Source: a virus
Reading direction: 5' to 3' (one strand)
Length of the DNA: 45,247 nt
Virus record (IMG/VR): IMGVR_UViG_3300022868_000035
Span: 1-45,247 of that record
The position numbers and the translations under genes are program-made. Below are positions 3,928 through 44,213 of the stretch, in pieces. The notes below the pieces were generated by a model. That model did no database searches, had not been told where the DNA came from, and saw only the letters and a program-made list of their open reading frames with translations. Every line of letters starts with the position of its first letter. Position 1 is the first letter of the stretch.

Positions 3928-3936
3928 GTGAGAAAG

Positions 3937-4434
3937 ATGAAAATATATACAAAGAACGGAGATAAAGGGACAACTATTATTAACGGAGAAACCATTAGTA
4001 AAGATAGTTGTCTAACAAAAACAATGGGGGCATTTGATTCATTACAGTCGGCATTAGACAGAGTAACATATGGATTAGATTTGTTGCCTGAAATGGGCAG
4101 ACATTTAGGAGAATGTTCTGTTATAAGAGTTAATCTAAATCATATCATATCAGAAGTTATGGACATACCTTGTAGCGGAATTGACATTGATGATATTGAG
4201 GAATTAGAACTACTAATTGATGAGATGAATGTAGAGATTGACCACTTTGTTAGTTTTGGTAATCCTGTAGCGATGGATATTAATGAGGCAAGAGTTAGAA
4301 CTAGAAAACTTGAAAGAAAGTTAGTAGGAGCATACAACGAGAATGTGATTAATGATAACAGTTATAAGTATGTAAATAGATTAAGCGACTATTTATTTGT
4401 ATTGGCTGTTTACATTGAAAGAAAGTTTGAGTGA
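3937..4434 (+). CDS. PduO-type ATP:cob(I)alamin adenosyltransferase
   Basis: Transfers the adenosyl group of ATP to cob(I)alamin to make adenosylcobalamin. Start set at ATG 3937, five bases after AGGTGA; an upstream GTG (3928) is inside that ribosome site. Family signatures are in order: K-I-Y-T-K-N-G-D-K-G-T-T at the N-terminus (ATP site), ISKDS, GAFDSLQSALDR, then FGNPVAMDINEARVRTRKLE with the conserved Arg-rich helix, and NRLSDYLFVLAVYIE at the C-terminus. Length (165 aa) is near the usual 170-190. The class II RNR at 12366 uses this cofactor, which explains why a virus would carry it. Confidence 0.88.
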   Translation: MKIYTKNGDKGTTIINGETISKDSCLTKTMGAFDSLQSALDRVTYGLDLLPEMGRHLGECSVIRVNLNHIISEVMDIPCSGIDIDDIEELELLIDEMNVEIDHFVSFGNPVAMDINEARVRTRKLERKLVGAYNENVINDNSYKYVNRLSDYLFVLAVYIERKFE

Positions 4435-10144: not shown

Positions 10145-10786
10145 ATGTCTAGACAATTAGGTTTTAAACATACTGAAGAAACAAAAAGAAAAATAAGTGA
10201 AAAAAATAAAGGAAAAATTAAAACAAAAGAACATTTACAAAAACTATCAGAATCTGCAAAAATCGCGTGGATTAATAATCCAAACCAAGGTAATAAAGGA
10301 TGTAAACGTTCTAAAGAACATAGTTTAGCTATATCAAAAGCCAACAAAGGAAAATCACCATGGAATAAAGGGATAACTGGATATTCTACATCATGGAAAG
10401 GTCAGAAGCATACTGATACAACTAAAAAAAAGATGAGTGATAATCATCTAAGTAAAACTAATCCAGAATTATTTAAAAAAATTAACGACATATATAGACC
10501 AAGAAATCCAACTATATATGAACAACGAGCATCTGAAATACTAGATAAGAATAATATAAAATACATTACACAATATAAAATAAAAACATATTGTTGTGAC
10601 TTTTATATTCCAGAATTGAATCTAATATTAGAAATAGATGGATATAGTAAAACATCTAAAAGAAAACAAACAATAATAAAAGAAGGTTATAACCTTCTTC
10701 ATGTTTGGAATAAAAATGTTGAAACTATAATGAAAACAATATTTGAGGTAGAAAAATATGAAAGTTCCATTATCAGAAACTTATAG
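10145..10786 (+). CDS. NUMOD3 plus Vsr-like (EDxHD-type) homing endonuclease
   Basis: 213 residues, ATG after GAGGTGATATT and a consensus promoter of its own. The N-terminal half has repeated NUMOD3-type helices (HTEETKRKISEKNKG, SKEHSLAISKANKG) used for DNA recognition. The C-terminal part reads Y-E-Q-R-A-S-E-I-L, CDFYIPELNLILEIDGY and LLHVW, the pattern of Vsr/DUF559-related PD-(D/E)XK nucleases such as I-Bth0305I. It lies between PCNA and RfcS and its end overlaps the rfcS start by 29 bases, as expected for an insertion at a gene junction. Confidence 0.8.
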   Translation: MSRQLGFKHTEETKRKISEKNKGKIKTKEHLQKLSESAKIAWINNPNQGNKGCKRSKEHSLAISKANKGKSPWNKGITGYSTSWKGQKHTDTTKKKMSDNHLSKTNPELFKKINDIYRPRNPTIYEQRASEILDKNNIKYITQYKIKTYCCDFYIPELNLILEIDGYSKTSKRKQTIIKEGYNLLHVWNKNVETIMKTIFEVEKYESSIIRNL

Positions 10787-12365: not shown

Positions 12366-14315
12366 ATGAAAGAAGCAACGTTTGAAATTAGTGATGACTT
12401 TTTAAAAAACTATGAAGGTAAACAACCTAAATGGGGACAACTAGGATATATAACCTATAAAAGAACTTATAGTAGACCATTAGCAGATGGTAAAGCAGAA
12501 GAATATTGGCAAACAGTTAGAAGAGTTGTTGAAGGAGTATTCACTATTCAAAAGAGACATTGTCAAAAAACAAGATTACCATTCAATCATTGGAAAGCAC
12601 AAGCATCAGCACAGAAGATGTTTCAGTTAATGTGGGATTTTAAATTCACACCACCTGGAAGAGGCTTATGGATGATGGGTACTGATTATATGTACAAACG
12701 TGGTGGAGCGGCATTAAACAACTGTGCGTTCTCAAGTACTGAAAATATCGATGTTGACTTTGCAGAGCCATTCACATTCTTAATGGATATGAGTATGCTT
12801 GGAGTTGGTGTTGGTGGAGATACAAGAGGAGCTGGTAAAGTTACAATTAAAGAACCAAAGATTGACGGACCTCACGAAATAGAAGATACAAGAGAAGGTT
12901 GGGTAGACATTATTCAACGAATATTAAATTCATTCGTTGGAAAAGATACAATGCCAAGTCACATCAGTTATGATAAGATTAGACCGTTAGGTGCTCTCAT
13001 CGCTGGATTTGGTGGAGTAGCATCAGGACCTGACCCTTTAATTGAATTAGTTGAAGATATTAAAACATTATTATATGAACGAGTTGGAAGTCCAATTAAA
13101 TCTACAGATATAGTTGATATTTATAATTTAGTTGGTAAATGTGTAGTATCTGGTAACGTTAGACGTTCAGCAGAGATTATGTTTGGAGAACCTGAAGATA
13201 AAGATTTCATGGCTCTTAAAGACCCTGAGATAAACAAAGAAGCTTTAATGCATCACAGATGGGCAAGTAATAACTCAGTGTTCGCAAAAGTTGGAATGGA
13301 CTATACAGAATTAGCAGAGAAGACAGCTAAGAATGGAGAGCCAGGTTTCATGTGGTTAGATAACGCACAGAACTTTTCAAGAATGGACGGAGTTGTTGAC
13401 CATAAAGATTACAGAGCTAAAGGTGGTAATCCATGTTTAGAACAAACACTTGAACCATATGAATTATGTTGTTTAGTGGAGACTTATCCAAGTAACCACG
13501 ATACATTAGAAGAGTGGCACGAAACACTGAAGTATGCTTATATGTATGCTAAAACAGTGACATTAGTACCAACTCACAATGAACTTACCAATGCTGTAAT
13601 GTTGAGAAACAGACGTATTGGTTGCTCAATGAGTGGGATAGTGCAGGCGTTTACAAAGTTTGGAAGAAGAAACTTTTTGAATGAATCAAGCGTTGGTTAC
13701 GAAAAGCTCCAACGGTGGGACAGAATTTATTCAGATTGGTTATGTGTACCACGTTCTATTAAGACTACCTCGGTTAAACCTAGTGGAACAGTGTCACTAC
13801 TTTCAGGAGTAACACCAGGAATACACTATCCCATCTCAGAGTATTATATTAGAAATATTCGATTTCAAGAAGGTAGTAGCTTACTTAAACATTTAAGAGA
13901 AGCTGGTTACACTATTGAACAAGATAAATATTCAAATAATACTTGGGTTGTTAGTTTTCCAGTTAAAGAGAACTACTTTGATAGAGATATAAATGACGTA
14001 TCAATGTGGGAGCAATTAGAAAACGCAGCACAAATTCAAGAACACTGGGCTGATAACCAAGTGAGTGTTACAATAAGCTTTAGCAAAGAAGAAGCTAAAG
14101 ACATTGGTAGAGCATTAGAGTTGTACGAAACTAGACTTAAAGGAGTATCTTTCTTACCAAAGAAAGACCATGGGTACGAACAAGCACCATACATTCCAAT
14201 TAGTAAAGTTGATTATGATTTAATGGTTGAGAATCTTAAGAAGATTAAAAAAATTAAGAAAGACACACATGAAGTTACAGAGAAGTACTGTGATAGTACA
14301 AGCTGTGAGGTATAA
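12366..14315 (+). CDS. nrdJ: Class II (adenosylcobalamin-dependent) ribonucleotide reductase
   Basis: Reduces ribonucleotides to deoxyribonucleotides using adenosylcobalamin. It most resembles the monomeric RTPR type of Lactobacillus, in 649 residues (RTPR about 740). The active-site Cys of the first redox pair is in L-N-N-C-A-F at C120. The thiyl Cys and catalytic Glu are in N-P-C-L-E at 355-359, and the second redox Cys is in E-L-C-C at 368/369. The C-terminus carries the mobile pair C642 and C647 (CDSTSC). The cofactor can be made by the adenosyltransferase at 3937 and the reductant may be the glutaredoxin at 1870. Confidence 0.92.
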   Translation: MKEATFEISDDFLKNYEGKQPKWGQLGYITYKRTYSRPLADGKAEEYWQTVRRVVEGVFTIQKRHCQKTRLPFNHWKAQASAQKMFQLMWDFKFTPPGRGLWMMGTDYMYKRGGAALNNCAFSSTENIDVDFAEPFTFLMDMSMLGVGVGGDTRGAGKVTIKEPKIDGPHEIEDTREGWVDIIQRILNSFVGKDTMPSHISYDKIRPLGALIAGFGGVASGPDPLIELVEDIKTLLYERVGSPIKSTDIVDIYNLVGKCVVSGNVRRSAEIMFGEPEDKDFMALKDPEINKEALMHHRWASNNSVFAKVGMDYTELAEKTAKNGEPGFMWLDNAQNFSRMDGVVDHKDYRAKGGNPCLEQTLEPYELCCLVETYPSNHDTLEEWHETLKYAYMYAKTVTLVPTHNELTNAVMLRNRRIGCSMSGIVQAFTKFGRRNFLNESSVGYEKLQRWDRIYSDWLCVPRSIKTTSVKPSGTVSLLSGVTPGIHYPISEYYIRNIRFQEGSSLLKHLREAGYTIEQDKYSNNTWVVSFPVKENYFDRDINDVSMWEQLENAAQIQEHWADNQVSVTISFSKEEAKDIGRALELYETRLKGVSFLPKKDHGYEQAPYIPISKVDYDLMVENLKKIKKIKKDTHEVTEKYCDSTSCEV

Positions 14316-25868: not shown

Positions 25869-26111
25869 ATGAAAGAAAAAATTAGAACTATTAGTAGTTG
25901 GCACGAACTTGTGGACTTTGTTGAGGATATTAACCCCAACAAAGAAACTGTAGTTCTAGTCGGATGGCTCAACGAGATTTATAAAGAAAGAACTTATGTT
26001 AAACAATTAGTATTTTCAACTATGGATGTTAACATATTAAAGGAGAAGAATAATGTTAAAAAAACTAAAAAATTGGCTAGAAAGCCTACTGTTAAACGTA
26101 CAACAAAGTGA
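25869..26111 (+). CDS. Hypothetical protein (80 aa)
   Basis: ATG at 25869 after TAGGATGATAAA. A small alpha/beta core (ISSWHELVDFVEDI; ETVVLVGWLNEIY; VKQLVFSTMDV) and a Lys/Arg-rich tail. The tail-coding bases overlap the next gene by 59 bases. Not recognised. Confidence 0.45.
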   Translation: MKEKIRTISSWHELVDFVEDINPNKETVVLVGWLNEIYKERTYVKQLVFSTMDVNILKEKNNVKKTKKLARKPTVKRTTK

Positions 26112-26847
26112 TAATGATGATTACATACAACGTATAGAACTTTTACTAAATGAATTAGAAGCTAGTAATAATGTAAATATAGATATGGCTGAGATTGTTG
26201 CTAAGTTGAATGATGAGAAGAAAGCATTACAACTATTAGTACCTGTACCAAAACCAACAATCACTAAACCATCTTGGCTTAAAGGCTATATGAGTTATAA
26301 ACCAAGAAGAAGATTTGTTAGTAAGAACTTAGATATTACAAAACTGTTTACAAAACCACAATACTGCTTTGATAAATCGACTTTACTATATGAATTACTT
26401 AAGAAAAACAACTTACTTAATGTAGAAAAAACATTTGATAATATGAAGAAGATTATGAGACTTATTACAGGTATGATTACATACGAATATGATAAGACTG
26501 ATAATTGGAGACCTATTACAGATATTTTAATGTTTGGTAAAGGAGATTGTGATGATTCAGGCGGAATTGCTATTACAAGCGCACTTGGAATGGCTGGTTG
26601 GAATGAAGATGAAGTATTCGTAGCAGCTGGGTGGTTCTATAAAAATAATGACTTAGATAAGAACAACAGAGGCGGGCATGCTTGGGGAGTAGCTAAGTGT
26701 GATGGTAAGTGGTATGTACTTGAAGGTACAAATAGAACAGCTATACCAAGACTATGGTCAACATGGAAAAAGAAATATGAATGTTCTTGGGGAGTTTGCA
26801 ATTGGCGTTGGCAGGGTATGATTTCAAATGGCAGAACTTACTTGTAA
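26053..26847 (+). CDS. Transglutaminase-like cysteine peptidase
   Basis: 264 residues, ATG after AAAGGAGAAGAATA. An N-terminal helical, Lys-rich region (1-60) and a Pro-rich linker precede a papain-like core: G-K-G-D-C-D-D at 162-168 with catalytic Cys 166, G-G-H-A-W-G at 207-212 with His 209, and W-Y-V-L-E-G-T at 220-226 with Glu 224 in the usual Asp position. This matches the transglutaminase-like (TGL/BTLCP) superfamily. Possible roles are cleaving or cross-linking host proteins or peptides; there is no signal peptide. Confidence 0.75.
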   Translation: MLKKLKNWLESLLLNVQQSDNDDYIQRIELLLNELEASNNVNIDMAEIVAKLNDEKKALQLLVPVPKPTITKPSWLKGYMSYKPRRRFVSKNLDITKLFTKPQYCFDKSTLLYELLKKNNLLNVEKTFDNMKKIMRLITGMITYEYDKTDNWRPITDILMFGKGDCDDSGGIAITSALGMAGWNEDEVFVAAGWFYKNNDLDKNNRGGHAWGVAKCDGKWYVLEGTNRTAIPRLWSTWKKKYECSWGVCNWRWQGMISNGRTYL

Positions 26848-28186: not shown

Positions 28187-28612
28187 ATGGACAAAAAACA
28201 ATGTACTCAGTGTAAAAAACATAAAGGACTACATTTATTTAATAAACCAGAGAATAAATGGTGTATGTTATGTGTTCAGAAGAAACAATTATACAATGAG
28301 AACTTTAATAAGAAGAATAAACCATCTTATATGTTAACTATTATAAAAGCAAGAGCAAGAAAATATGGTATACCATTCAATTTAACAAGAGAAGATATAG
28401 ATATTCCAGATTATTGTCCTGTATTAGGAATACCTTTAGACTGGAGTGATAGAGAACATACTCCAAGTATAGATAAAATTATTCCAAAAAAAGGGTATAT
28501 TACTGGAAATATCGCTGTTATGAGTATGAAAGCTAACAGAATGAAGCAAGATTCGAGCTTAGAAGACCTAGAAAAGCTAGTAACATGGTTAAAAAGCGAA
28601 ACATTTAAATAG
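28187..28612 (+). CDS. Phage-type HNH/His-Me endonuclease (141 aa)
   Basis: Starts with a zinc ribbon (C-T-Q-C and C-M-L-C), then a Lys/Asn-rich helix. The C-terminal part reads Y-C-P-V-L-G-I-P-L, P-S-I-D-K-I-I-P-K-K-G-Y, G-N-I-A-V-M-S and A-N-R-M-K, the arrangement of HNH-type recombination and homing endonucleases in large phages, where the P-S-x-D-(R/K) segment and Asn residues hold the metal site. Free-standing, with its own promoter. Its last codons overlap the promoter at 28597. Confidence 0.7.
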   Translation: MDKKQCTQCKKHKGLHLFNKPENKWCMLCVQKKQLYNENFNKKNKPSYMLTIIKARARKYGIPFNLTREDIDIPDYCPVLGIPLDWSDREHTPSIDKIIPKKGYITGNIAVMSMKANRMKQDSSLEDLEKLVTWLKSETFK

Positions 28613-28771
28613 TAGAACTAGCTATATAATATATACAATGGTGATAAATAGCCACTAAAGACAATTCTATGTGATTTAAATAGTTAATATACAAACATAG
28701 AGATTGTCATCAAGTTTTTGACTGAAAATCAGTCGAAATTAAATAAAACATACCAAAAAAGGTGATTAAAC
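28597..28771 (+). promoter_or_regulatory. S-layer-like gene promoter and structured leader
   Basis: CGAAACATTTAAAT at 28597-28610, followed by AGTAGAAC, is a consensus promoter. GACAATTCTATGT at 28660-28672 is mirrored by ACATAGAGATTGTC at 28695-28708 (one extra base), forming a long stem. Its 22-base loop holds a second TATA-like TTTAAATAG. A perfect hairpin GACTGAAAATCAGTC lies at 28720-28734 before AAAGGTGATTAAAC and the ATG at 28772. The leader is about 135 bases, unusually long here. Confidence 0.6.
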
Positions 28772-30235
28772 ATGAAACAAACAAATGAAAAAAGCATTAT
28801 GAGTAAAGTTGCTTATGGAGTTGCTACAGTAGGAGTTGCAGTAGGACTATTAGGCGGAATTGGCTACATAAATGTAAGCAAAGATAAGAAAGTCGCAGAA
28901 CAGGCACTTTTAGACAACGCAGTAATCGTGGAATCACTTCAATCCCAGCTATCTGATAATAGCATTACACTTGAGAGCTTCAAAGCTCAAATAACAAATT
29001 TAGGTGTAGAATTGTCAGATTTGTCGGTAAGAAGTGAAGCAGACGCAGCAGTAATTGATGCATATGCTAAAGAAGTTGCTGAATTAAAAGCAATCGAAGA
29101 AGTACCAGCAACAGAAGCACCAGTAGAAGTTGTATTCAATGGATATGATGAAGAGTTAGATAGTATTGAATCATTTAGCTTTGTAGAACTGAACGACAAT
29201 CAAGTTGAGAAACTAGCAGACTTAGAAGTTGAGTTTGACGGCGAAGACGTTGATGTTAAAGAATTCTTAACAGTAAAAGGAGACTTTGAACTTGAGAAAG
29301 AAGTAGCATTTAACTTTGTTGATGAAGATATCGTTTATGAATTAGAATTTGATTCTGGTTTAGACTTTACTAAAGATGATTTGAAAATCTCAGTTTTAGG
29401 CGAAGAAATGGAAATCAAAAGCTATGACACAGATTTAATGGTTGTTAATAGAGCACCAGAAAAGATTGCTAAAGAAGGCGATGTTATTAAGGGATTAACT
29501 ATTGTACAAATTGGCGAAGACGCTATTATCGTATCATACGATGGTGAAACTGAAATCGTTAGTACTAGTAAGACTATTGGTGACTTAGAAGTTAGTGTTG
29601 AAGATATATTCTATAGCGATGTTGCAGAAAGAAGCTTAGTTAACTTAAGAGTTGGCGAAGACCTTGATGAGACTATCGAAGTTGATGATTATGTCGACGA
29701 AGATGAGTTATATCAATATACAACTATCGATATAGCAGCTGGTAAGATTGTAATTAAGTTAGTAGAAGATGTTGATGAAGTACAAGAACTTGTATTACCA
29801 AACGACTTTGCTAAAGTAAGTTATGCATTATCAAGTGAAGACTATAATGATGTTAGTGTTGTTAAGAAAGATGACAAACTATCAGAAATTAAAGCTGACT
29901 TTGAAGAATTTGACGCAACTAAAGTTAAATTTGAAGATGGAAACTGGACAATCGAAGATAATGATGGTGACGACTTAATTGTTACTGGCATGAATCTAGA
30001 GTTAAAAGACTCAGACTACACTATCGATTTCACAGACGATACTCAAGTATATGTAGCAGATATTGAATTCACACCAAGCTCAATCAACAGTGGAGTTGGC
30101 GACGAAGACGAAATCTACACTACAAGTGCAGGAATCGTTATCGAAGATAGAGATAGTTGGAATGAAGACGACGATGAAACTGTTAAATTATCAGTTCCAG
30201 AGAAGGCTGTCAAAGCAAAAATCTTTGTAGAGTAA
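28772..30235 (+). CDS. S-layer-like surface protein (487 aa)
   Basis: Residues 12-34 are a hydrophobic anchor or signal (VAYGVATVGVAVGLLGGIGY). Residues 38-100 are helical with heptad-like spacing. The rest is a very acidic, beta-rich region. Segments such as SVEDIFYSDV ... VNLRVGE and the C-terminal KLSVPEKAVKAKIFVE match the style of DPANN archaeal S-layer proteins, which end in a similar VPE...VFV strand. It lies next to the virus early genes with its own promoter and a terminator, so it looks regulated on its own. Roles to consider: host surface modification, exclusion, or decoy. Confidence 0.7.
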   Translation: MKQTNEKSIMSKVAYGVATVGVAVGLLGGIGYINVSKDKKVAEQALLDNAVIVESLQSQLSDNSITLESFKAQITNLGVELSDLSVRSEADAAVIDAYAKEVAELKAIEEVPATEAPVEVVFNGYDEELDSIESFSFVELNDNQVEKLADLEVEFDGEDVDVKEFLTVKGDFELEKEVAFNFVDEDIVYELEFDSGLDFTKDDLKISVLGEEMEIKSYDTDLMVVNRAPEKIAKEGDVIKGLTIVQIGEDAIIVSYDGETEIVSTSKTIGDLEVSVEDIFYSDVAERSLVNLRVGEDLDETIEVDDYVDEDELYQYTTIDIAAGKIVIKLVEDVDEVQELVLPNDFAKVSYALSSEDYNDVSVVKKDDKLSEIKADFEEFDATKVKFEDGNWTIEDNDGDDLIVTGMNLELKDSDYTIDFTDDTQVYVADIEFTPSSINSGVGDEDEIYTTSAGIVIEDRDSWNEDDDETVKLSVPEKAVKAKIFVE

Positions 30236-30237
30236 AA

Positions 30238-30276
30238 TCTACATTTTTTTATTTTTTTTCTTTTTAATTTTAAGAA
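30238..30276 (+). terminator. T-rich terminator after the S-layer-like gene
   Basis: Three T runs (of 7, 8 and 5) within about 25 bases, directly after the stop at 30235, with no stem needed: the standard archaeal intrinsic terminator form. Confidence 0.6.
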
Positions 30277-31059: not shown

Positions 31060-31287
31060 CTACTTTGATATTTCTTTGTACCAGTATTCGCCAGCATCTA
31101 ACAGAAATTTACCAACAATAGTTAAGAATCCTAATAATGCTGGATTACTTGTAGCTAATGATGCAACCAATAGTGGTGCTCCTACTTTAGCTATTTCTTT
31201 AATTGTTTTCCAATTACCTAAGAACCATTCTTTAAGTTCCCATCCGTCAAATGTTTGTGATTTACTAATTACTTTTGGTTTTACCAT
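31060..31287 (-). CDS. Small membrane protein, holin-like (75 aa)
   Basis: ATG 31287 follows GGTGAAAAAA; a GTG at 31296 is inside that site. A basic N-terminal half is followed by a hydrophobic stretch (VGAPLLVASLATSNPALLGFLTIVGKFLL) long enough for one or two short helices, then an aromatic charged end (YWYKEISK). Position at the end of the virion cluster fits a lysis holin, but there is no adjacent lysin. Confidence 0.45.
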   Translation of the reverse strand: MVKPKVISKSQTFDGWELKEWFLGNWKTIKEIAKVGAPLLVASLATSNPALLGFLTIVGKFLLDAGEYWYKEISK

Positions 31288-31299
31288 TTTTTTCACCTT

Positions 31300-32916
31300 C
31301 TATTTATATAATAAGCTTATTGATTCATAAGCTGGACTTGAATCAGCACTTGATACTCTACTCATGTTAATTTTAAATTTTAAACTATTACCAGGTAATG
31401 AGAAGTCATGTACTTCTTCTCCTTCTGTTGTGTCATATGTTTCCCAAGTGACACCACCATTATTACTTACTTGATATGAATCTAAACTAGTAAAGTCATT
31501 TATACTTCTTCTTAATTCACATTGAGTTGCTTGTTGGTCAGATGTATATGTTGATGATATTACATTACCACTTATATCTCCACTATCTAATCTTAATACT
31601 CCTTCAGTTATAGCTGTACTTGAGAATGTTGCTATATATGATGGTGTTTCATCAAAGAATGTTGTGAAACTGTCTGACATGTCTTGAGGGTTACTTCCAC
31701 CTGTTACTTCATCTGGATTTAACTTTGGTATGAATAACTCTGATGCGTTCTTTAATTCTGCTGCTAATGATACTTTAGTTGTACAGAAATTACCAAGTGA
31801 ATGTGTAACTGTCTGTGCTTTATAATAACCATCTATGTTACAATAAGGAACTGATACGTTTATTAACTCTCCTGGTCTAAGTGTTGGTAAACAAATAGAT
31901 GATACATTACCTAGACTTGGATTTAATATACCTTGTTCTAATTCATAATCTGCTCTTGATTGTACCTTACTCATATTTTCTAATGATGAATCAGTAACAA
32001 TATTGTCTTTAATCCATAAGTTAGTCTGTGAAGCAGTATCATTCTCTGTCTTAACTGTTAATATATTACCACCTTCATCTTTTCCATAGACTATTACTCT
32101 ATTTAATATATCTGTGTTCTCTGTTCCAAACTCTCCAACAGTAACTAGATTAACGCCATATGCAATATTTGAACCAGTATTAGTTATAGTCTCTGATAAG
32201 AATGTTCTTAATACCCATTTACTACCATCGTATTCTATATAACATTCTAAACCAGCAGCTTTACAAAAACCTGTTATAGTAGTCCAAGCTTTCTTATGTT
32301 GATATGTTGTATTAACAAGATATGCTGGATAAGTTGGTACTGCTACGTCCCAAGTTACTGACGCTTCTGTAATATCTGTTGCTGGAACAAGTGTAGCTTC
32401 TGCCCATGCTGTTCCATTCCAAAATGTAAGAGTTAAATCTGTAAAGTAATTATTAAATATTCTTGCTATACTGATATCTGACCTTATAGCTGCTTCTGTG
32501 CCTGTTATTGTTCTATCAACTATCTCAGGGTATGCTCTACCTTCTATATTAACAGTAAATCCACTACCTGTAGACAAACCATACTTGACGTTATCTATCT
32601 TTGCTCTAAATATCTCTGTTGTCGCATCTGTATCATCAGCATAAAATTTGACAGTTTCTCCACCATTAAACTTATTGAGAAATATTCCTCCAATATTTGT
32701 TAGTGAAAAATTAAAGTCGCTTATCTTACTTGTAGCTGCTCTCTTAACAGTAGCATTACTAATCATATAATTATCAGCTAAAGCTCCACCATACGTATCT
32801 AATACGGTATAATCTACTGCACTATCATCTGTGATGACTATCTTAGAATAAGTCTTAGCATCTGTTGGTATAAATATCTTTGGTGCGCTAGTTCCACCTA
32901 ATGTTGTTCCAGCCAT
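31300..32916 (-). CDS. Tail hub / gpD-like baseplate protein (538 aa)
   Basis: ATG 32916 shares one base with the upstream gene's stop (TAATG). The middle and C-terminal regions read like the tail-hub (late control D) family: DILNRVIVYG, then LRPGELINVSVPYCNIDGYYKAQTVTHSLG, where the last strand-rich segment is typical of hub and tail spike base domains. The last 120 residues form a separate beta domain (ITEGVLRLDSGDISG; YQVSNNGGVTWETYD), probably a carbohydrate-binding or spike module. It follows the adhesin in the tail cluster. Confidence 0.6.
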   Translation of the reverse strand: MAGTTLGGTSAPKIFIPTDAKTYSKIVITDDSAVDYTVLDTYGGALADNYMISNATVKRAATSKISDFNFSLTNIGGIFLNKFNGGETVKFYADDTDATTEIFRAKIDNVKYGLSTGSGFTVNIEGRAYPEIVDRTITGTEAAIRSDISIARIFNNYFTDLTLTFWNGTAWAEATLVPATDITEASVTWDVAVPTYPAYLVNTTYQHKKAWTTITGFCKAAGLECYIEYDGSKWVLRTFLSETITNTGSNIAYGVNLVTVGEFGTENTDILNRVIVYGKDEGGNILTVKTENDTASQTNLWIKDNIVTDSSLENMSKVQSRADYELEQGILNPSLGNVSSICLPTLRPGELINVSVPYCNIDGYYKAQTVTHSLGNFCTTKVSLAAELKNASELFIPKLNPDEVTGGSNPQDMSDSFTTFFDETPSYIATFSSTAITEGVLRLDSGDISGNVISSTYTSDQQATQCELRRSINDFTSLDSYQVSNNGGVTWETYDTTEGEEVHDFSLPGNSLKFKINMSRVSSADSSPAYESISLLYK

Positions 32917-35900
32917 TATATAGTCGCCTCTGCTTTTAAGTCGAATGAAGGAATCCACACTCTCCAATCGTTATAACTACAAGTTAAATCAGCCCATAGC
33001 CATATTGGTACGTTTGAGTCTTCTGGTTGATTTGATGCTAAAGTTATATAAGTGTCGTTTACCATTAGTGTTGCTCCTACTTTACTATTATCTGTGTCTA
33101 CATAAAGGTCTACACAATCTGCTGACCCATACATCTTAATAGAGAAGTCTAAGTTATCTCCATAATTAGTAGTTGTAACGTTAATCATAGGATAAACTAA
33201 TGTTTGTCCGAATGGTGTTACGTTTTTAGCGTTCTTATCATTAGGATACCAATTAATGTTATTAATATTTGGTGGTAAGTCATAATCATATCCTGAATAT
33301 GAATACTTTAAAACATTACTTATATTACAAAAATTATCTGCTGAGTGTGCTCTAATTGTATCTCCAGAACTAATACCACCTAAATAATTATAATCTATAC
33401 CAGATATTGTGACATTGCCTGTTTCTCCATTCTCTACTTTAATAGTTACATTAGTATAACCACTACCAGCTGTTAACGCTGCTTGCACTGCTGTTGAACT
33501 TATAGTTATGGGACTCATAGTATACGTATAAGCTATACTAATAAGACTTGCTTGTAAAGCTCCTTTCTCTTCACTATATCCATATAAAGGCACGTAACAA
33601 AAACCATCTGAATCTGCTGTACATACTGCTAAATAAGTTGTTATAGCATCGCTCCAGTTACCATCTCTATTATTTGAATTGAATGTTCCTGTGTAATTCC
33701 ATTCTTTAACACCATCTAATAGTCCAATTTCCATCCAAGGGTCAACTGGATAAGTTGTTGACTCTATTCCTGTTATAGTCATATTAGCTGATGTAATAGT
33801 TGCTGTTTTTGGTAATCTAAATAATCCTACTTGTCCTATTGTTGCGTTTGTTGTAATGTTAGCGTTCTTAGTAATTGATGTGTCATTAAACTTTGTTTGA
33901 TTATAAGTACTTGTATCAGACATTAATCCTAAAGTGTTGCTTAAAGTAGTACCCACATAAACTTTAACACTATCTCCAGCTCCACTAACATTTAATGTAA
34001 GACTATTAAAATCATCATTTTCATGTCCTTGTATTTTAAATGTTTTGTTTTCAGCTCCTGTATAATTTAATTGTAATGTTGATTCACTATCTGAAGTTGT
34101 ACGAGTATGAAATTGTGATACTTCTGCATCGAATTGTGTTGAAGTAACATCACAACTATAATTTGTACCAAAAGCTGTGTTACTATCATCTATACAAACA
34201 TAATTATCACTTATATCATACCAAGACAAACTACCAGCATATAAATATCCTAAATCTCCACACACTGATAATGGAGTAATTTTAGTGACTGTTGCGCTCT
34301 CAAATGCTATTCGTACACCAGCTGTAGTCCAATGTGTTAATGTACCATCAGTAAAATCTGAACACCATAAAGTATCAGTTGTATAATCATATCCAACTTC
34401 ATAACAGTAACCGTAAGTATCTGATAATAATGATTCACTACCAGCAATAATATCAGTAACTATAATAGTCTCATTAGCCGATGTGAAATATAAATTTGTG
34501 CCATCTCCCGTCATAGACTTTAAACTTGTAAATGGTGTAGCATATGTACTAACAAATCCACCTGTCTCATCATGTATTGATATGTTATTAACATCACTAT
34601 ATAATAAATAATGATAACCATCTGATATATTATAATAATAATCTATAACACTTGTACCTACTTTTCCTGTTATTGTTGTATATGCACTATCATAAGTTGG
34701 TGTTCCATCACTTCCAACAGTCCAATTAAATATATAACTACTTTCATAACCATATAATTTATCTGTGTTATTATTACAAGAAAAGTAGTTACCATTAGAT
34801 GTACTAAGTGAACTAATATTTCTATCATAAGCGTCAATACTAGCATTTAAAATAACTGAACCTAATTCTTTTGTGATAGGATTTGAAAGTGTTCTAACGT
34901 CTACTCCATCTATTAAAAAGTCTACATCGTGTATTGGTACAGTTGTTGAATTTAACCATTCTGAATTAGTTGTTCCATCGTTTCCTCTACAACTAAATGT
35001 CCATTCATCTCCTGTTGATATATCTGCTATTGGTACATTATATAAATTGACATCTACACCTTCAGTGTGTGATGTTCCAATATCTACTGATATATTATTT
35101 ATCTCGTATATCTTAGTACCAACATTAGGAGCGGCACCAAAATTTACATATATCTCAACTGTATCATCATACAGTGATAAACAATCTGTGTTTGTTATAG
35201 TTATTGTTTGGTTGTAACGTGTACCTGGACTTGTACCAGCACTTGTAGGTGATATGCCAGTATTTGATATTCCCCCAACTTCATCTACACAATAAAATGC
35301 AAAGAAACTAGCGCCTGGAGATGTACCAGTATTTTCTAAATCAAGATTAAACGAAAACTCACTTATATCTGGAGATTTAAATGGTTTAGATATGTTATAA
35401 TATATTCTTCCACCACTTACTCCAATACCTGTATAACCAGCATATGTAGCTGAATTACCATCATAAGCATATTCAGGGTTTTCTATTTCATAATTTGGAG
35501 TTGATATATTACTATAAGTTATAGTTGATGCTCCAACTTCATATCCACTAAAGAATACGTCATCTTTATACCATATCCAATTGTAAGTAACATCGTCTCC
35601 ACCACTACTTGTAACGTTACACCATCCTCCTAATTCATTACTATTAGCTACTATATCATCATAACATAGATTACTAGCTGTATCTGTTTTAATTGTAGAA
35701 GTCTGTGTTGTTGGAGGAGTGTCAATACTCCACCACATAGCTTCTTCATACATTGGTATGGTAGTTCCACCAGCTAATTTGTTCCATGTTCCATTATAAC
35801 ACTGAGCATCAGTACTATTAATTGGATTTGGATAATCACTATATAATCTAAGTAGTAATGTATCACTATCATAATTCCAACAACTTTCTGGTATTGTTAC

Positions 35901-36767
35901 ATTTATTCGTCCAGTATTACTTACTTTTATTTCCCATAATGAAGTTGCTTGATATGCACCTTCTGGTTTAGTATAATTCATATAAGAATTTGATGTACTT
36001 GGAGGTGAAGTATAATCTGTTGCACCATATGTGTCCCAGTCTCCATCTATTGTTTTAATATATGTTGCTCCTGCATCCCAAGTTCCATCTTGTGTATATG
36101 TTCCTGTACTTAATCCACCACAAGCAGTTGCAACATTTGCGAACTCTTGGTAACAAAAAGAAGTTGTTGGTGGGTCAAAGATTCTAACAGAATAAACTTC
36201 ATAATCAGAAGTTGGTCTATAACGTACGATAAGCTTATCGCTAGCTGTTTTCTGTTGAAATAATTTAGAATAATAAGCGCCTTCTTGCCATTCGATTTTC
36301 ATCTTATGACCGAATTCTTCTGGGCTTGTAGCTATTCGTGTCTCTCCTGTATATAGAATATCTCTATATTCAAAATGTACTATCTTACCAATAGCATTAA
36401 TAACTTCTACTTCGTGTGTTACTGGAAATAATCTTACATCTGTTACTGTAGAATCAAATGTATACGTATCTATTGTCGTAATATTATCTTTCCATATAGA
36501 AGTTCTTGTAATTGTTGTGATGTCATCTAATGTTGTTGTGGCTAGTTCTCGTGACTTAGCACGCATTTTGGTAGTACCATCAAACAAGTTTACATACTCA
36601 GTCGCACTGAGTATCCAGTCTTCGTTTTCCCAAACATAAAATTTAGAATTTGTTTTGCCAATGTCTAACTTAACATTCTCTGGCATGAATATATATATTG
36701 ATGAAATTAAAATTACTAAAGTTAATATACTACTTAGTATTATTTTTGTCTTACCAGCTTTGTTCAT
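32916..36767 (-). CDS. Giant Ig-like adhesin / tail fibre (1283 aa)
   Basis: ATG 36767 after GAGGAATAGAA. A basic start and hydrophobic segment at 7-28 (KIILSSILTLVILISSIYIF) serve as anchor or signal. Then a long array of beta domains with repeated Cys pairs and Ig-like strands: Y-N-W-I-W-Y-K-D-D, S-T-G-D-E-W-T-F-S-C-R-G-N-D-G-T, and C-Y-Q-E-F-A-N-V-A-T-A-C-G-G-L. These phrases are characteristic of large surface proteins of Woesearchaeota- and Pacearchaeota-like genomes. Between Dit-like and hub genes, it probably recognises the host. An N-terminal membrane segment is odd for a fibre. Confidence 0.7.
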   Translation of the reverse strand: MNKAGKTKIILSSILTLVILISSIYIFMPENVKLDIGKTNSKFYVWENEDWILSATEYVNLFDGTTKMRAKSRELATTTLDDITTITRTSIWKDNITTIDTYTFDSTVTDVRLFPVTHEVEVINAIGKIVHFEYRDILYTGETRIATSPEEFGHKMKIEWQEGAYYSKLFQQKTASDKLIVRYRPTSDYEVYSVRIFDPPTTSFCYQEFANVATACGGLSTGTYTQDGTWDAGATYIKTIDGDWDTYGATDYTSPPSTSNSYMNYTKPEGAYQATSLWEIKVSNTGRINVTIPESCWNYDSDTLLLRLYSDYPNPINSTDAQCYNGTWNKLAGGTTIPMYEEAMWWSIDTPPTTQTSTIKTDTASNLCYDDIVANSNELGGWCNVTSSGGDDVTYNWIWYKDDVFFSGYEVGASTITYSNISTPNYEIENPEYAYDGNSATYAGYTGIGVSGGRIYYNISKPFKSPDISEFSFNLDLENTGTSPGASFFAFYCVDEVGGISNTGISPTSAGTSPGTRYNQTITITNTDCLSLYDDTVEIYVNFGAAPNVGTKIYEINNISVDIGTSHTEGVDVNLYNVPIADISTGDEWTFSCRGNDGTTNSEWLNSTTVPIHDVDFLIDGVDVRTLSNPITKELGSVILNASIDAYDRNISSLSTSNGNYFSCNNNTDKLYGYESSYIFNWTVGSDGTPTYDSAYTTITGKVGTSVIDYYYNISDGYHYLLYSDVNNISIHDETGGFVSTYATPFTSLKSMTGDGTNLYFTSANETIIVTDIIAGSESLLSDTYGYCYEVGYDYTTDTLWCSDFTDGTLTHWTTAGVRIAFESATVTKITPLSVCGDLGYLYAGSLSWYDISDNYVCIDDSNTAFGTNYSCDVTSTQFDAEVSQFHTRTTSDSESTLQLNYTGAENKTFKIQGHENDDFNSLTLNVSGAGDSVKVYVGTTLSNTLGLMSDTSTYNQTKFNDTSITKNANITTNATIGQVGLFRLPKTATITSANMTITGIESTTYPVDPWMEIGLLDGVKEWNYTGTFNSNNRDGNWSDAITTYLAVCTADSDGFCYVPLYGYSEEKGALQASLISIAYTYTMSPITISSTAVQAALTAGSGYTNVTIKVENGETGNVTISGIDYNYLGGISSGDTIRAHSADNFCNISNVLKYSYSGYDYDLPPNINNINWYPNDKNAKNVTPFGQTLVYPMINVTTTNYGDNLDFSIKMYGSADCVDLYVDTDNSKVGATLMVNDTYITLASNQPEDSNVPIWLWADLTCSYNDWRVWIPSFDLKAEATI

Positions 36768-44198: not shown

Positions 44199-44213
44199 TA
44201 TATAAATGTTTCG
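44199..44213 (-). promoter_or_regulatory. Consensus promoter for the endonuclease in the tail cluster
   Basis: On the minus strand this reads CGAAACATTTATATA followed by CTAGAAG, identical in its 15-base core to the site at 10096-10110. It lies about 40 bases before the endonuclease start and just after the stop of the 59-residue gene. Confidence 0.72.

Follow-up and report, generated by a model that had tools for sequence, protein, structure and literature searches.

A predicted membrane-anchored acidic protein encoded in its own putative transcription unit by related tailed viruses that probably infect archaea

To our knowledge, little is known about how tailed archaeal viruses modify the surface of infected cells. 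In bacteria, phage-encoded surface lipoproteins that are tethered outside the membrane block DNA injection, as in the case of Ltp from phage TP-J34 (PMC3952083). For archaeal cell coats, an N-terminal signal peptide has been reported for the S-layer protein of N. equitans (PMC5744192). In the literature that we searched, S-layer proteins encoded by viruses were not described. Here, we analyzed P0001, encoded in a 45,247-nucleotide stretch of viral DNA (IMG/VR record IMGVR_UViG_3300022868_000035; the whole stretch is referred to as the window). A first-pass annotation had described this protein as S-layer-like and had suggested that it could remodel the host surface, block superinfection or be displayed on virions. 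Of these proposals, we consider superinfection exclusion or remodelling of the host surface the likeliest, with a probability of roughly 45%.

The tail genes of the window, including a tape measure gene (PF10145) and a tail protein gene (phrog_290), lie on the minus strand, and the replication genes on the plus strand are of archaeal type (Rad51/RadA, an RFC-like AAA protein and a family B polymerase). Considering these tail and replication genes together with the BRE/TATA-type promoters, we regard the virus as an archaeal tailed virus, and it probably infects archaea. An archaeal host, though not specifically a DPANN one, is well supported. The window also contains a B12-dependent ribonucleotide reductase gene (12366-14315, plus strand; PF21995, PF17975) and a cobalamin adenosyltransferase ORF (3928-4434, plus strand; PF01923, E 6e-26), and the virus may thereby provide its reductase with the coenzyme. 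A transglutaminase-like ORF (26053-26847, plus strand) shows a Cys-His-Asp pattern by eye; it had no Pfam match and no relative in the other viruses. In the related virus G004, the family B polymerase (L012:10232-13525, plus strand) carries an intein-like insertion in its middle, which is absent from the polymerase of the window.

The P0001 gene (Table 1) starts with ATG and has GC contents of 0.55/0.27/0.24 at the three codon positions, resembling other genes of the virus. Because of this virus-like composition and the existence of diverged homologues, we consider it a real gene. The protein is acidic, as had been annotated, with a pI of about 4.05, 25% Asp plus Glu and zero Cys. The proposed membrane anchor was confirmed by hydropathy as one N-terminal hydrophobic segment, in which the best 19-residue means (1.7-1.8) start at residues 9, 13 and 17, and there is no second such segment. 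The annotated helical region and beta domains appeared in a single-sequence AlphaFold model as helices at about residues 38-105 and strands from residue 118, in a model of low confidence (mean pLDDT 37), so that this part of the description holds at that level only.

Table 1. Coordinates of P0001, its predicted parts and the associated signals in the window
Feature	Position	Strand	Description or basis
Gene P0001	28772-30235	+	487-aa acidic surface protein, membrane-anchored (predicted)
Membrane anchor, about residues 9-35	28796-28876	+	hydropathy, lipobox scan, N-terminal alignment; lipobox here in relatives
Helical/coiled-coil stalk, about residues 38-110 (predicted)	28883-29101	+	low-confidence model; weak coiled-coil-type profile matches in homologues
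Acidic beta-type ectodomain, about residues 118-487 (predicted)	29123-30232	+	conserved best at residues 140-238; BLASTP, alignments, profile
BRE/TATA-type archaeal promoter CGAAACATTTAAATA	28597-28611	+	motif enrichment; near-identical boxes in relatives
Long structured 5' leader, about 138 nt	28635-28771	+	folding against shuffles; inferred transcription start
Leader hairpin 1, GACAATtCTATG ... CATAGAgATTGTC	28660-28708	+	13 base pairs; fold
Leader hairpin 2, TTTTTGACTGA AAA TCAGTCGAAA	28716-28738	+	fold
Ribosome-binding site AAGGTGAT	28759-28766	+	sequence; inside weak hairpin
T-rich tract, archaeal-type terminator	30244-30269	+	sequence, directly after the stop codon

Two other IMG/VR records with the identical P0001 gene proved to be pieces of the same virus, and diverged relatives were recovered by scans with the major tail protein, a hub-like tail protein and the polymerase. 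Virus G004, whose source metagenome 3300035698 is an Ace Lake (Antarctica) dataset according to a paper, encodes the homologue P0002 (553 aa, L012:16570-18231), and G005 and G006 encode P0003 (608 aa, L020:1441-3267) in two copies that differ by one base. BLASTP aligned P0001 and P0002 with 32% identity over 114 aa (residues 140-238, E 6e-8). A two-sequence profile of these proteins matched P0003 in G005 (E 1e-87), and tblastn with P0003 matched P0001 over query residues 5-255 (E 2e-11). The fourth virus, G007, encodes P0004, which is 235 aa long as called and probably starts 10 codons later. What P0004 has in common with the other proteins is confined to the N-terminal anchor module (hhalign E 5e-4, 25 columns, probability only 33%), which makes the link suggestive, and its ectodomain is different, shorter and devoid of the beta domains. 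No further families came from scans of viral sequences with the tail hub or the homologue alignments, P0001 and P0003 had no match among annotated phages and plasmids, and a genome scan with P0001 and also with the RFC gene, which detects close relatives only, found no relatives.

In all four viruses, the gene occupies the same place next to the convergent tail module, with the same small plus-strand genes on its other side in G004 and G005/G006. The annotated location away from the virion genes was borne out, since the P0001 gene is the last one of the plus strand and faces the end of the minus-strand tail module. Between the viruses, this gene is about 27% identical, compared with 43-75% for neighbouring genes: 43-50% in the adjacent tail protein, 63-67% in the major tail protein and 63-75% in RadA. 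Fast divergence of this kind is what antagonism would lead one to expect in a surface protein. Two HNH genes flank P0001 (28187-28612 and 30505-31008), a sign of gene movement nearby, and P0001 could on this basis be a recent passenger gene from the host with no viral role. However, homologues with 27-41% identity occupy the same place with the same signals, and each has kept an intact long ORF, so that the passenger explanation is already disfavoured and we judge it very improbable. About nine HNH/homing-endonuclease-like ORFs occur in the window (at 10145, 15780, 16425, 19531, 23577, 26828, 28187, 30505 and 43567), and the two flanking P0001 were not observed next to its equivalent in G004 or G005. 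In these two viruses, a cold-shock-like ORF lies beside the surface-protein gene.

Simple hydropathy and motif scans found a hydrophobic N-terminal segment, as in an export signal, in all of the proteins and a lipobox in three of the four: LSGC in P0002 and LAGC in both P0003 and P0004. P0001 has a plain transmembrane segment without Cys. Because three relatives have a lipobox and P0001 has a transmembrane segment at the same point, membrane tethering appears to be the conserved feature; from these readings, it would be common to all four proteins, with an anchor that has changed in kind. On the one hand, the position beside the tail module in four of four viruses and the fast divergence, a trait of receptor-binding proteins, could fit an adhesin carried by the virion or its tail, in line with the virion display that had been proposed. 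On the other hand, P0001 and its relatives carry an export signal with a lipobox or a transmembrane helix, a tailed virion lacks a membrane in which P0001 could be anchored, and the promoter and strand of the gene are separate from the tail operon. We therefore consider virion display improbable for a lipoprotein that a tailed virus encodes, and we give the adhesin only a slim chance. Considering the export signal and anchor, and that the virion of a tailed virus has no membrane, P0001 most likely ends on the infected cell. Elsewhere in the window, a 1283-aa protein at the end of the tail operon (32916-36767, minus strand) has a signal-anchor-like start, as do two proteins of G007 (L028:1-2525 and L028:15037-17745, both minus strand); none of these had a Pfam or PHROGs match, and the 1283-aa protein is, by its sequence, a possible second membrane-anchored surface protein.

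The promoter, long structured leader and terminator that had been assigned to P0001 were all recovered. The promoter belongs to a motif, CGA[AT]A[CG]ATTTA[AT]ATA, that occurs 10 times in the window compared with 0.7 expected by chance. Copies include those at 1013, 10096, 23444, 28149 and 28597 on the plus strand and at 44213 on the minus strand. Several copies lie 38-68 bases upstream of other window ORFs, and the motif could help to trace operons in this group of viruses. All three relatives have near-identical AAACATTTATATACTAG boxes at 124-153 bases upstream of the equivalent gene. Bacterial sigma-70 promoters were rejected as drivers of P0001, as sigma-70-like sites occurred no more often than by chance and the archaeal motif above chance. 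When transcription is assumed to start about 30 bases downstream of the TATA box, the inferred leaders of the four viruses are 93-138 nt long. The P0001 leader folds with a z-score of -4.14, and 0 of 200 shuffles were equally stable; the corresponding values for P0002, P0003 and P0004 are -5.5, -3.5 and -1.7. As a control, two other window genes with the same promoter have short, unstructured leader stretches (z -0.9 and 0.4). The hairpin sequences differ between the viruses, so the conserved trait is a structured leader as such, and an Rfam search of the P0001 leader found no known RNA family. AAGGTG precedes the start of the equivalent gene in all three relatives. In all four leaders (window, L012, L020 and L027), the ribosome-binding site lies inside a small predicted hairpin, which could reflect chance or translational control. 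T-rich tracts such as TTTTTTTATTTTTTT follow the stop codon in each of the three relatives. These signals suggest that all four viruses transcribe the gene as a separate unit, in which the structured leader may tune translation of P0001. The structured leaders are also a separate lead on timing or dose control of a viral surface protein.

We considered whether P0001 is a true viral S-layer subunit, that is, a homologue of the host S-layer protein that becomes part of the lattice and either replaces the surface or coats it anew, hiding receptors or loosening the lattice for egress. The acidic ectodomain, probably rich in beta strands, the N-terminal export signal and the separate promoter with its long leader would be in keeping with such a subunit, and the signal peptide of the N. 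equitans S-layer protein offers a precedent (PMC5744192). Profile searches gave a different picture. Pfam searches with all four proteins returned no S-layer family, hmmscan of P0001, P0002 and P0003 found neither a PF05123-type nor a PF05124-type S-layer family, and PF05124 (S_layer_C) had no match in the window even at E<=10. NCBIfam and PHROGs searches with P0001 and its relatives gave nothing significant for the ectodomain, and the PDB contained no relative by sequence or by profile, with DPANN S-layer proteins not represented in the searched sets. A match to PF16537 (T2SSB; E 5e-4, residues 233-259) was below the cut-off, and together with several matches to coiled-coil families it was taken as compositional or due to a short motif. 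A three-sequence AlphaFold model of the beta part reached a mean pLDDT of 41, with residues 105-200 somewhat better, and Foldseek with this model gave no match at E<=0.001 in the PDB or BFVD. The structure prediction and comparison proposed in the first-pass annotation were thus carried out, with models (pLDDT 37 and 41) that were too poor to compare.

The likeness to S-layer proteins, noted also in the first-pass annotation, involves phrases of sequence. A strand of P0001, LKISVLGEEMEI, looks to us like DPANN S-layer sequence, with the counterparts LKLSLLGKDVEI in P0002 and LKIVFLGEELEI in P0003. The C-terminal stretch VKLSVPEKAVKAKIFVE of P0001 likewise looks to us like DPANN S-layer proteins, as does the C-terminal VPEKAVKAKIFVE (P0002 VPSDVVKASLCIR). 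We treat this impression as a lead and not as a test; S-layer identity is not demonstrated. What stands of the S-layer-like description is an acidic, beta-type and tethered protein in its own unit, and what does not is homology to S-layer proteins in Pfam, NCBIfam, PHROGs or the PDB. In addition, the N-terminal lipid or transmembrane anchor, the presence of just two N-glycosylation motifs in P0001 and the absence of the beta domains in the fourth virus argue against a true subunit, which we consider unlikely. The broader proposal is equally doubtful: a lineage of tailed archaeal viruses would carry its own tethered S-layer-type subunit in a dedicated, leader-regulated unit and re-coat the infected cell, with the anchor kept and the ectodomain exchanged between relatives. 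If true, it would represent a viral S-layer mimic that hides receptors. If the S-layer link were proved, viruses would be seen to borrow the coat protein of the host itself, and S-layer-based exclusion would become testable.

Small membrane-type, possibly holin-like ORFs adjoin the surface-protein gene in the window (31060-31296, minus strand) and in two relatives (L012:18385-18597 and L020:3507-3695, both plus strand). P0001 could be a membrane-tethered lysis or egress factor that, together with the nearby small protein, opens the envelope as spanins do. A lipoprotein with a coiled coil recalls outer spanins, and P0002 gave a very weak, non-significant PHROG match to phrog_456, an Rz-like spanin (E 0.095). 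However, spanins have nothing comparable to the large beta ectodomain, there is no second transmembrane segment, archaeal envelopes have no outer membrane, and the holin assignment has no profile support. Accordingly, we regard a lysis function as improbable.

Returning to superinfection exclusion or surface remodelling, the gene, the anchor types, the homologues with their position, the transcription signals and the fast divergence are directly supported, and we infer the export, topology and function of P0001 as well as the S-layer-like character of its ectodomain. The infected archaeal cell would export P0001, made from its own promoter with the long structured leader, and the N-terminal anchor, an uncleaved transmembrane helix in P0001 and a lipid anchor in the relatives, would keep it tethered outside the membrane. 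The helical stalk may lift the large, acidic beta ectodomain off the membrane, to a position inside the host surface layer or immediately below it. The altered cell surface could then stop further tailed viruses from adsorbing or injecting; alternatively, progeny may be kept from sticking to debris and infected cells. A role against rival viruses or host surface structures is suited by the separate promoter, the fast divergence and the sharing of the anchor with a different ectodomain. Against exclusion stand the small set of proteins compared (three homologues and one partial homologue), the loss of the lipobox Cys in P0001 and the outcome of the searches, in which neither profiles nor structures connected P0001 with S-layer or exclusion proteins. 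Moreover, exclusion is typically a trait of temperate phages, and no sign of lysogeny was seen here. As a conserved, probably tethered surface protein with a fast-changing ectodomain and its own unit in four related viruses, P0001 is a candidate for archaeal superinfection exclusion or remodelling.

Compared with Ltp of TP-J34, P0001 is likewise virus-encoded, has an N-terminal anchor, is predicted to be tethered outside the cytoplasmic membrane and is encoded outside the virion operon. However, Ltp comes from bacterial temperate phages, no sequence relation between the two was seen, and the ectodomain of P0001 is much larger and of beta type. Ltp also belongs to a lysogeny module, whereas no lysogeny is shown for the present virus. 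With phage spanins, P0001 and its relatives share the features of a lipoprotein with a coiled coil near a small membrane-type ORF, but differ in the large acidic beta ectodomain, the lack of a significant profile match and the archaeal type of the virus. With the archaeal S-layer proteins of methanogens and DPANN (S_layer_N/S_layer_C), P0001 shares an export signal, an acidic composition, a probable richness in beta strands and an apparent likeness of phrasing. Unlike these proteins, P0001 is viral, has no S_layer_C match or proven homology, and combines an N-terminal anchor with a predicted coiled-coil stalk.
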